A stretch of 64,000 nt of DNA. Origin: a virus. Location of the stretch: the IMG/VR virus record IMGVR_UViG_3300044637_000586, positions 1 to 64,000 of that record; one strand, given 5' to 3'. This document shows positions 56,023 to 58,957 of this stretch, in pieces. Positions within the stretch are counted from its first letter, which is position 1. Each line of letters opens with the position of its first letter. The position numbers and the translations under genes are program-made. The notes beneath the pieces were generated by a model. It searched no databases. It was not told where the DNA came from and worked only from the letters and a program-made list of their open reading frames with translations.

Positions 56023-56214
56023 ATGTTTATCGTTTCAATTCTATTAGTTGTATTCTGCCTTACGTTCATGATCAAGAACTCCATATATGGCTGTGGCAAA
56101 AGATGTTACAAGACCCGGAAGGAGGCTCAGGAACACTGTGACCATGATCAAAAGGTGTTCATGTGCTGGGAGTGTGAGACGTGGCACATAAAAAATAATG
56201 AAGAAAATACTTGA
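56023..56214 (+). CDS. Membrane-anchored zinc-knuckle protein (63 aa)
   Basis: One N-terminal transmembrane helix (MFIVSILLVVFCLTFMI) and a Cys/His-rich soluble part (YGCGKRCYKTRKEAQEHCD, then MCWECETWHIK). The tail resembles small phage Zn-finger proteins of the C-x-x-x-x-Y-x-T-x-x-E-A ... C-x-x-C-x-x-W-H type, here with an anchor added. It would place a zinc knuckle on the cytoplasmic or periplasmic face. First gene of the rightward replication unit. Confidence 0.7.
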   Translation: MFIVSILLVVFCLTFMIKNSIYGCGKRCYKTRKEAQEHCDHDQKVFMCWECETWHIKNNEENT

Positions 56215-56241
56215 CAACCTCGCGTGGTTGTTTTATGTTTG
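56211..56241 (+). promoter_or_regulatory. Strong promoter of the replication genes / leader RNA
   Basis: TTGAC at 56211-56215, 20-nt spacer from TTG, TATGTTTG at 56234-56241. Transcription should start near 56247-56250, which leaves a leader of about 110 nt before the ATG at 56359, unlike the near-leaderless promoters elsewhere in this genome. Confidence 0.75.
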
Positions 56242-56247
56242 CTAAAA

Positions 56248-56353
56248 TATTCCGCCCCCCGTTTGTTAAGAGCAACAACAACCGGGGGTTGGAAGGCGGT
56301 TACAAATCATAACCAACTCAAAAACCCGTAAAGTTGCTCTTACGGGTTTTTTT
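56248..56353 (+). ncRNA. Structured leader RNA with kissing-loop capable terminator
   Basis: Two hairpins are visible. Hairpin 1: CCGCC (56252-56256) with GGCGG (56295-56299), an asymmetric internal bulge, CCCCG (56257-56261) with CGGGG (56283-56287) and a 21-nt loop. Hairpin 2: an 11-bp stem (56321-56331 with 56340-56350) followed by T-run, which is an intrinsic terminator with the 8-nt loop AGTTGCTC. The loop of hairpin 1 contains TAAGAGCAAC (56267-56276), which is perfectly complementary to GTTGCTCTTA (56333-56342). The loops can kiss (7 nt), or the longer 10-bp pairing could invade the terminator stem. Either a small stand-alone RNA of about 100 nt or an attenuator for the replication genes is expected. 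Confidence 0.55.
56321..56353 (+). terminator. Intrinsic terminator in the leader of the replication genes
   Basis: AAAACCCGTAA (56321-56331) pairs with TTACGGGTTTT (56340-56350), with a T-run to 56353, lying 5 nt before the start codon of the next gene. It would cut most transcripts from the promoter at 56211 unless antitermination occurs. Confidence 0.85.
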
Positions 56354-56358
56354 ATTCT

Positions 56359-57036
56359 ATGAACACAGGACAAATTGTTAAAGGGAAGCGCAAGCATGAC
56401 TTCGCGATTATCCCAAACGAAATCTCACAATCCAATCAGCTTACGATGGAAGAAAAGGGTATGATGTGCTTCCTTCTTTCGCTTCCAGACAATTGGGTGC
56501 TTTACAAGAAAAATATGTACGATCAACTTCCCGATGGGAAACACGCAATTGACCGTGTGTTTAAGTCCCTGCAAGACAAGGGGTATGTGCTTAGTTGCCG
56601 TCACATGGATGCTGCCACAGGCAGAATGCTCGGTTGGAACCATATCGTGTATGATGAATCTAAACTTGACCGAGAGGCGGATTTACCGACATCTGGTTTT
56701 CCCGTTATCGGTGATACCCAACAGTCGGGTAACATCGATATATATAAAGAAACAAATACCAACAAAGAAACAATAATATACAAATACGCATTCGATGATT
56801 TTTGGATTGCTTACGACAAGAAGGTGGATAAGAAACAGACCCTTGCTGTATGGAACAAACTTCGTTCGGGTGAGCGCATACTCGCGGTTGAATGCATGGA
56901 TAACCACAAGGCTGGTCGTGAACGGAAATACTGGAAGGACCCGGTAAGATATCTTCGTGATAAAAGATGGGAGGACGAACCACAGGCTAAAACTATAAAA
57001 CAAACACCTATTCAAGATGACAGCAATACATGGTAA
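56359..57036 (+). CDS. Winged-helix replication protein, replisome organiser type (225 aa)
   Basis: N-terminal 100 residues are a winged helix as in phage replication initiators: FAIIPNEISQSNQLTMEEKG, MMCFLLSLPDNWVLYKKNM, HAIDRVFKSLQDKGYVLSC. A Ser/Thr-rich linker and a C-terminal helical domain (FDDFWIAYDKKVDKKQTLAV, then YWKDPVRYLRDKRWEDE) follow. This last part is like the DnaT/DnaD-type domain that loads helicase. It overlaps the primase-helicase gene by 20 nt, so the pair is coupled. It is controlled by the terminator-bearing leader just upstream. Confidence 0.75.
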   Translation: MNTGQIVKGKRKHDFAIIPNEISQSNQLTMEEKGMMCFLLSLPDNWVLYKKNMYDQLPDGKHAIDRVFKSLQDKGYVLSCRHMDAATGRMLGWNHIVYDESKLDREADLPTSGFPVIGDTQQSGNIDIYKETNTNKETIIYKYAFDDFWIAYDKKVDKKQTLAVWNKLRSGERILAVECMDNHKAGRERKYWKDPVRYLRDKRWEDEPQAKTIKQTPIQDDSNTW

Positions 57037-58957
57037 GGTATCAATCTACAAAGACTTCAATGACCTGCAAGGACACCAAATTACTGTGTTGGGCGCACTT
57101 GAACGAATTAGGACTGGAAAATCAAAGACACTTGTTGAGCAGGCGCGGGAAGCCAAAACCAAGAAAGAGGCGGACGATTTAAAAAAGAAACTTCCTGCCG
57201 TTTGTTTTAGCGGCACTTTTTCCAAAAGAAAGGACTCAGATCTGCTTGAGCATTCAGGATACATCGTTTTAGACTTCGATAACGTGTCGGATATGGCCCA
57301 AAAACGAAGCGAATTGTCACTTATAAGTTACATTACCGCTGTTTGGGTTTCACCCTCTGGAAAGGGCTTAAAATCGCTCGTCCAAATTGAGTGGAAAACC
57401 AAACATAAAGAGCATTTTGATGCACTAATGGCGGAAATGCCCGACATTGATAAGACCGGCCGTAATGTTTCCCGCCTATGTTTTGAGTCGTATGATCCGG
57501 AATTGTACTACAATCCAAACGCGGAAGTTTACACCAAGCTGCCTGTAAAGAAGGAAGACAGGAGGTTGCCACAACAGACAACTACCGAAACCATCAACGA
57601 TGACGATGCCATATTCAAGAACCTGCTTACATGGATGACGTCCAAGGGTGACGCGTTCCGTGAGGGGGAGAGGAACCACTTTGTGTTCAAGTTAGCCGCA
57701 AGCTGTTGCCGGTTTGGGATGATGGAAGAGACCTGCTACAGCCTGATGATGATGCACGTTGTCCCTGACGCTAGTTTCAGCCAAAGGGAATGTAAGCAAG
57801 CTATTAGTAGCGCGTACAGGGCTAACATGAATCAGTGGAATACAGCTGAATTTACAAAAGACCAACTGGTTACAAAGAGTAACCGGAAGGAAATTGACAT
57901 TGTAATCACCGCAGAAGATGCGGAGAATATTGCGGCGAATGATGTGATTTATGCGGAGGAAGTGATTGAGCAAGCCTCCGACATTTACTTACATGGATAC
58001 AGGGCCGCTCAACCGTTAGGCGTTCCGCTACTCGATAGGCACTTCAAGCGCGTGAAAGGCGATTTAACAATTGTTTCCGGAATAGGAAACTACGGTAAGT
58101 CTTCGTTTATGAAGTGGGAAATGGTATTTCGCATTGTTAGGTTTGGGGAGAAGGTTGCCATCTTCACTCCCGAAGAATTGCCCGCAGAACAGTTCTACCA
58201 CGACCTTGTGGAGATATACTTCGGCAAAGACTGCACGCCCAACAACCCCAACCGTCCGCCATACGATCTGTACATGAAGGCTTACAAGATGATTGGCGAA
58301 CACATCTTCATGGTGTACCCTAAGAGTGTAAGCCCTACCCCCGAATACGTTAAGGAGGTATTCCTTACCCTCATTGTCAAGCACGGGGTGGAACGGGTTG
58401 TTATTGACCCTTTCAATCAAATGGCCAACGACTACGCCAAGGGAGGGGGGCGAAGCGACAAGTACCTGGAGACGTTCCTGTCTGACTGCACCCGCTTTGC
58501 CCGCAAGAACAACGTGTACTTCGACATTGTAGTCCACCCGCACAAGATGCGTAAGGGCGATGACGGCAACTACCCATGCCCGGAAGTGTTTGATCTTGCA
58601 GATGGTGCGATGTGGAACAACAAGGCCGACAACATCCTGATCTACCACCGACCATTTGCTCAGACGGCCCCCGAAAGCCCAATATGCGAGTTTCACTCCA
58701 AGAAGATACGCCGACAGAAGATTGTGGGCATCAAGGGTTTCTTTGAGTTTCAACTACAGAGGAACACCCGCAGGTTCACGTTCGAGGGCGTTGATTACCT
58801 TCATCAGGCGATCGAGGGTAAATATGTACAGGCGCAGATTGAAGAACCGAAGCCATCAGTCATCCGTCCAAATAGGAACTGGACTGATTCCAAAGAAGCC
58901 AAGGAATGGAATGAAGATATTCAGCACCCGAACGGGTATAAAGAGGCTTGGGAATGA
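57017..58957 (+). CDS. Primase-helicase: VirE/BT4734-type primase fused to DnaB-like helicase (646 aa)
   Basis: Residues about 60-180 carry the BT4734/VirE N-terminal domain: CFSGTFSKRKDSDLLEHSGY, then IVLDFDNV (Asp86, Asp88) and ITAVWVSPSGKGLKSLVQIE. These are primase-polymerase-type active-site strands. A helical domain follows (GDAFREGERNHFVFKLAASC) as in primase C-terminal regions. Residues 330-600 are a SF4 RecA-like helicase with Walker A GIGNYGKSSF (Lys361) and Walker B VVIDPFNQM (Asp464). It should unwind and prime the phage fork. The combination is characteristic of Bacteroidota mobile elements and phages. Confidence 0.85.
   Translation: MTAIHGKVSIYKDFNDLQGHQITVLGALERIRTGKSKTLVEQAREAKTKKEADDLKKKLPAVCFSGTFSKRKDSDLLEHSGYIVLDFDNVSDMAQKRSELSLISYITAVWVSPSGKGLKSLVQIEWKTKHKEHFDALMAEMPDIDKTGRNVSRLCFESYDPELYYNPNAEVYTKLPVKKEDRRLPQQTTTETINDDDAIFKNLLTWMTSKGDAFREGERNHFVFKLAASCCRFGMMEETCYSLMMMHVVPDASFSQRECKQAISSAYRANMNQWNTAEFTKDQLVTKSNRKEIDIVITAEDAENIAANDVIYAEEVIEQASDIYLHGYRAAQPLGVPLLDRHFKRVKGDLTIVSGIGNYGKSSFMKWEMVFRIVRFGEKVAIFTPEELPAEQFYHDLVEIYFGKDCTPNNPNRPPYDLYMKAYKMIGEHIFMVYPKSVSPTPEYVKEVFLTLIVKHGVERVVIDPFNQMANDYAKGGGRSDKYLETFLSDCTRFARKNNVYFDIVVHPHKMRKGDDGNYPCPEVFDLADGAMWNNKADNILIYHRPFAQTAPESPICEFHSKKIRRQKIVGIKGFFEFQLQRNTRRFTFEGVDYLHQAIEGKYVQAQIEEPKPSVIRPNRNWTDSKEAKEWNEDIQHPNGYKEAWE

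Follow-up and report, generated by a model that had tools for sequence, protein, structure and literature searches.

The window analysed here, a stretch of 64,000 nucleotides (positions 1 to 64,000 of the IMG/VR record IMGVR_UViG_3300044637_000586, which is a viral record of 66,833 bases), raised the question of what a long structured leader does directly ahead of the replication genes of a virus. The replication operon starts with the gene of an initiator-like replication initiation protein (PHROG 270; 56359..57036, plus strand, ATG at 56359), followed by that of a primase/helicase with a BT4734-like N-terminal domain (57017..58957, plus strand) and, farther along the same operon, by that of a protein with a DnaA C-terminal domain. 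No DNA similarity to known phages was found for this sequence, and the 66.8-kb record contains no phage integrase of Pfam PF00589.

Layout of the leader

We read a Bacteroidetes-type promoter (56211..56241, plus strand) from the sequence, with TTG(AC) at 56211-56215 and TATGTTTG at 56234-56241. The spacing between TTG and TATG in the window is 20 nt, and the TAnnTTTG motif ahead of the leader is also kept in relatives. The RNA would start at about 56247-56249 of the plus strand. RNA folds gave a first hairpin, H1 (56250..56294, plus strand), with the loop AAGAGCAAC at 56268-56276, and a small middle hairpin, H2 (56298..56314, plus strand), which is variable among relatives and missing from the cultured ones. 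They are followed by a predicted intrinsic terminator, T (56320..56353, plus strand), whose hairpin (56320-56351) is made of the stem AAAAACCCGTAA/TTACGGGTTTTT and an 8-nt loop and whose T-run extends to 56353; a G+C-rich hairpin followed by a T-run is what defines such terminators, and T was also detected by a terminator scan. The H1 loop holds the sequence GAGCAAC (56270..56276, plus strand), while the T loop holds GTTGCTC (56333..56339, plus strand), which is its exact complement and covaries with it. The gap between the complements of H1 and T in the window is 56 nt, and a pattern search allowing a gap of 20-50 nt therefore missed the element. The fold of the leader reached -40.4 kcal/mol (z = -4.1), and 0 of 200 shuffles were as good. 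No second copy of a hairpin with a complementary terminator loop was found elsewhere in the window.

Comparison with the initial annotation showed that its positions for TTG(AC) (56211), TATGTTTG, TAAGAGCAAC (56267-56276), GTTGCTCTTA (56333-56342) and the ATG (56359) were exact, and that the terminator does end 5 nt ahead of the replication gene, the T-run reaching 56353. The 10-nt complement that it described between the two hairpins is present in the window, but the conserved core is only 7 nt (GAGCAAC/GTTGCTC); the remaining three pairs involve the TTA of the T stem and are not conserved in relatives. Its remark that this phage mostly uses near-leaderless promoters elsewhere was roughly right, as the window has 15 TAnnTTTG promoter-like sites that lie ahead of ORFs and include a TTG element, and 10 of them give leaders no longer than 16 nt, whereas the leader studied here is 117 nt long. 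It had also recognised no known riboswitch or phage small RNA, and Rfam 15 agreed: no family was matched at gathering or relaxed thresholds, with tRNAs in the neighbouring DNA only, and the best sub-threshold match at the leader scored 23.4 bits against a threshold of 59. The covariance models of the GOLLD and ROOL families were not matched by the leader either.

The promoter spacer contains an imperfect palindrome, ACAACC-TCGCGT-GGTTGT (56214..56231), whose half-sites co-vary in some relatives (ACAAAC-TCGCGT-GTTTGT in L004 and L010) and which is missing from L106, L107 and L110. This palindrome is a candidate repressor operator, or it could form a hairpin in RNA that reads through from upstream. 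An ORF of 63 aa (56023-56214) reads toward the leader, with its own TAAATTTG promoter 4 nt ahead of its start; its product has a hydrophobic start and several cysteines (CGKRC, CWEC) and gave no family match.

Occurrence in metagenomic and cultured phages

Searches for relatives returned 15 viral contigs with the first protein, 34 with the promoter pattern and 74 distinct loci with the helicase; further relatives were gathered via alignments and distant members, and a search of genome contigs added 7 helicase relatives. In the set of 73 loci defined by the helicase, the element lies just ahead of the primase/helicase operon in 67 (67 of the 71 with upstream sequence), as scored by a detector that itself demands 7 complementary nt. 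Two of the other loci are cut off by the end of the contig, and four distant ones (L112-L114 and L120, with 49-52% identity) do not have the element. A detector match located 2.8 kb from the helicase of L226 was left out of the count. Off homologous positions, the detector gave about a dozen scattered matches in 4.4 Mb, both strands counted, nearly all of them of 7 nt. Of 38 distinct sequences lying ahead of the first gene, none showed, when read by eye, the layout with loops that fail to match: the detector had found 35, L013 was found by eye, and L014 and L015 are without any such layout. In all of the element copies found, 7 or more loop bases are paired.

The first gene of the operon is swapped among unrelated initiator-like proteins (L085, L093, L115, L117 and L118) while the leader and the helicase stay, and the operon appears to be modular. 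This constancy of the leader beside a changing first gene speaks for operon control and against a Rep-binding site. A link between loop type and first-gene type was considered and rejected, since each common type of first gene has both common loop types.

A search of phage isolates with the helicase yielded distant relatives only (23-38% identity). We sampled cultured relatives via helicase matches, non-exhaustively, and read the DNA upstream of their replication genes; loop pairs were first spotted by eye, so that some selection is involved, and a script then listed every complementary run of at least 7. The same layout was present in Elemovirus A and E/F, Lillamyvirus, Tenacibaculum phage JQ, Cellulophaga phi10:1 and Nekkels. 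Elemovirus E and F carry GTGGAGG/CCTCCAC and Elemovirus A, B, C and D carry TGAGAGC/GCTCTCA; the upstream DNA of the two groups is otherwise nearly identical, and Elemovirus A and E/F have the same recorded host, Flavobacterium sp. BAL314. The pair is GTGAGACG/CGTCTCAC in sniff9-2, hemulen9-1, hattifnatt9-1 and tooticki9-1, and GTGAGAAG/CTTCTCAC in morran9-1, which differs from sniff9-2 by one compensatory pair change. Tenacibaculum phage JQ has GCATCCTAC/GTAGGATGC, and Cellulophaga phi10:1 and phi19:1 have GTACGAC/GTCGTAC. The leader of the Cellulophaga phage Nekkels_1 (L336, 537-731) has ATTGGAA/TTCCAAT and a second pair, GTCTAAC/GTTAGAC; its terminator hairpin splits into two sub-hairpins. 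The layout was not seen upstream of the replication genes of L014, L015, L112-L114, L120, FL-1, P12024L, pippi8-1, phi46:1 and Panino, nor was it found in a superficial look at PJN03 and Arctus_1. The Maribacter phage Panino (L329, 2868-3036) has a terminator-like hairpin, AAACCCTA/TAGGGTTT, ahead of its replication genes and without a 7-nt kissing match, which is possibly a degenerate or different version of the element.

Nearly all relatives have G+C-rich stems followed immediately by T-runs, although the T-runs of some are interrupted (TATTTTAATTT in phi10:1 and TTTCTTTTT in L106). The distance from T to the first start codon is within about 15 nt in the clade of the window and about 25-60 nt in the cultured relatives. 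These features bear on the reading in which the leader is a structured 5' UTR that merely protects the mRNA or shapes the access of ribosomes to the start codon, the terminator look being incidental. The closeness of T to the start codon in the clade of the window and the interrupted T-runs are consistent with such a UTR, but the stems and T-runs of nearly all relatives, together with a T located ~50-60 nt ahead of the gene in Lillamyvirus and phi10:1, make it improbable.

Cultured phages have a short H1 and a long T, while phages of the window's clade have a long H1 and a short T. The combined length of H1, T and the kissing helix is similar, about 84-115 angstrom by a crude estimate, although H1 and T vary inversely; this constancy is only a lead, because it comes from two phage groups and crude rules. 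Unconstrained folding ties up part of the H1 loop in some cultured phages, leaving 3 of 7 loop bases free in elemoE and 4 of 7 in elemoA.

Loop types and covariation

The metagenomic set contains 11 loop types, and in each case the terminator loop carries the exact complement: GAGCAAC (the type of the window), GAACCAC, GAGTCAC (L121), GTGGAGT (L095 and L098), GTAAGGC (L085), GTAGAGC (L115), GGACTAG (L116), GTACGAG (L117, L119 and L230), GTAAGGA (L118), GTAGTGC (L013) and GTAGGAG (L328). The 7 pairs of the cultured phages bring the loop pairs to 18 in all. The metagenomic kissing cores all start with G, and 10 of the 11 have four G-C pairs out of seven. Their pairing is estimated at -9.0 +/- 0.5 kcal/mol, whereas all 7-mers have a standard deviation of 2.6, and this narrow range suggests a tuned strength. 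The estimated kissing energy is not uniform in the cultured phages, where it extends from -5.7 to -13.8 kcal/mol.

Comparison of the loops within and between phages of the metagenomic set showed that the longest match is on average 7.7 for own pairs and 4.3 for a T loop with the 5' half of another phage, and the own-pair sum was equalled by 0 of 200,000 permutations. When the cultured phages were added, 17 of the 18 own pairs reached 7 nt, the exception being Maribacter Panino. The loops could in principle match by chance, as 7-base matches arise in 21 of 306 cross combinations. However, there are 18 loop pairs in many lineages, 0 of 300,000 permutations matched the data with the cultured phages included, and the loops have switched repeatedly in a linked way; chance is refuted by this covariation and is exceedingly improbable as an explanation.

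Aligned across 41 leaders, the kissing helix shows 97.9% pairing and compensatory double changes, the H1 stem (upper and lower) and the T stem covary too, and the covariation score of the whole structure is higher than those of all shuffles and all slid versions. With two pairing hairpin loops kept by compensatory change, the leader can be assigned, from its alignment, to the kissing-loop RNAs. The loops of H1 and T almost certainly pair through 7 bp, by which the RNA grips itself or its twin. Conservation of the complementarity in related phages, on which the initial annotation had made its proposal depend, was thus borne out, every copy found being complementary while the letters vary on both sides.

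The helicase tree implies no fewer than 21 changes of loop type. At least 12 switches between the two commonest types fall on its supported branches, and a mixed pair occurs in no leader. A tree of the leader without its loops and T has 6 type changes, 2 of them on supported branches, which indicates that recombination of entire leaders accounts for part of the 12 interchanges. Both types are, however, found with near-identical H1 stems and H2 hairpins (L071/L078, L105/L153 and L037/L122), so that loops and surroundings have been reshuffled and the match retained.

Known systems and possible modes of action

The CI RNA of satellite phage P4 is described as a small RNA derived from an untranslated leader that controls premature termination ahead of replication genes by base pairing (PMC4825925). 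The position ahead of replication genes and the pairing within the leader fit this RNA, as well as the c4 RNA of P1/P7. However, the P4 CI RNA is processed from between its targets seqA and seqC and serves the lysogenic immunity of a temperate phage or satellite, whereas here the H1 loop pairs with the terminator loop and the record has no PF00589 integrase. Plasmid attenuators of the pT181/pIP501 type combine a replication-gene leader with a kissing hairpin and an intrinsic terminator (PMC4878617), and in all three respects resemble the present leader. In these plasmids, the 5' hairpin is the target of a counter-transcribed antisense RNA, whose binding releases the terminator from the antiterminator, while here both partners are on the sense leader. 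The leader does not have the nested antiterminator helix of the pT181 type: with the 3' arm of T blocked, the rest of the fold is unchanged and the 5' arm of T is left without a partner. Should the leader be an attenuator, its natural control element would therefore be the kiss.

Kissing loops of 7 nt resemble the RNAI/RNAII type. The RNAI/RNAII pair of ColE1 has short, fully complementary loops whose letters set compatibility types (PMC9458437), and the present leader is similar in its short complementary loops and its loop types. Such a resemblance (PMC9458437 for the system), together with the location directly ahead of the initiator and primase/helicase genes, would suit a replication-origin RNA, that is, a primer or pre-primer at an origin beside the replication genes whose use is controlled by the kiss, as in ColE1-type plasmids. 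We find this quite improbable, since the ColE1 complement is an antisense transcript from the opposite strand of one locus, while here two separate sites on the same strand form two hairpins of one RNA. The arrangement of the partners, with one in the terminator loop of the same transcript, matches none of P4 CI, pT181 and ColE1. The phi29 packaging RNA, of about 100-170 nt, has two complementary 4-nt loops that pair between molecules and functions in DNA packaging. Here a terminator hairpin is found ahead of replication genes, the loops are longer and there is no Rfam match. GOLLD and ROOL are phage RNAs with covarying kissing loops (PMC12286853) but, unlike the leader, they are several hundred nt long, lie near tRNA islands and have no terminator-loop pairing. 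A literature search of incomplete coverage found no description of such an element, which is weak evidence of absence. RNA attenuators are known as a kind; the kiss between H1 and T would be a new arrangement.

Many phages of flavobacteria and relatives share the leader, which probably controls when the replication genes are switched on. The reading that we prefer, with a confidence that is about evenly divided, is that it is a kissing-loop RNA of ~100 nt acting as an attenuator of the phage replication operon. We infer the direction and mode of this regulation as follows. Transcription would begin just ahead of H1 and the RNA would mostly end at T, directly ahead of the first gene, so that the operon would be expressed only once RNA polymerase passes T. 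The kiss between H1 and T, acting in cis, in trans among leaders of one type, or both, would set how often T is bypassed. Its most likely sign would be against termination: H1, being transcribed first, may catch the T loop early, before the 3' arm of T leaves the polymerase. The initial annotation had proposed that the 10-bp pairing opens the terminator, which is unsupported as worded: the conserved pairing is a 7-bp kiss within the loops and both stems can stay intact. An effect of the kiss on termination is consequently not required, which counts against an attenuator, as do the interrupted T-runs of phi10:1 and L106 and the non-uniform kissing strength in cultured phages.

The terminated ~100-nt RNA could instead be the product itself, a free-standing small RNA acting elsewhere (on a host target, as a defence decoy or in assembly), with the operon read by leakage. 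The kiss would then close the end hairpins into a stable ring or join molecules as dimers or chains. No more than a few nt separate H1 from the inferred start, and the RNA would end with T, leaving little more than two complementary hairpins and a linker, as expected for such a molecule, and kissing-loop assembly is known for the phage RNAs GOLLD and ROOL (PMC12286853). By crude geometry, the linker of elemoE, elemoA and phi10:1 looks too short to allow a straight kiss within one molecule if the T stem is complete; this suits pairing between molecules and would also fit a kiss that hinders T in cis. However, all these phages have T immediately ahead of the same operon, a position that a free RNA does not need. 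Loop matches of at least 8 nt elsewhere in the window are at chance level, and the freedom of the loop letters to change leaves no conserved outside target evident. We consider a free-standing RNA rather unlikely.

Since each leader of the attenuator that we favour has both loops, pairing in trans within a type is possible, and a released leader may pair with the nascent leader of the same loop type. Control would then respond to how many phage genomes are present and discriminate between loop types. That released leaders form in this way a self-recognising RNA type system is doubtful; such RNA compatibility types between phages are the categorically newer reading and are unproven. Co-infecting phages would, if it holds, sense each other's genome number or exclude each other by loop type, and flavobacterial phages would have an RNA-based incompatibility (superinfection) system with many interchangeable specificities.

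Few systems of RNA-controlled termination ahead of phage replication genes are known (P4). The leader would be a compact version, with the partner of the regulator inside the terminator loop, common to several groups of flavobacterial phages, uncultured and cultured. Close relatives differ in both loops at once, and this supplies natural variants, matched and mismatched, that would be useful for the study of cis and trans control, of copy-number sensing and of RNA-based incompatibility between phages, and the very regular 7-bp loops provide natural orthogonal kissing pairs.

A different leader was observed at the same place in L112 (also in L113 and L114), about 730 nt upstream of the helicase. 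It has direct repeats (GCAACATGAT) and a hairpin loop with a ATCATGTTGCA-like sequence whose complement is found both at the 5' end and around the start codon of the following gene, which suggests another RNA switch.
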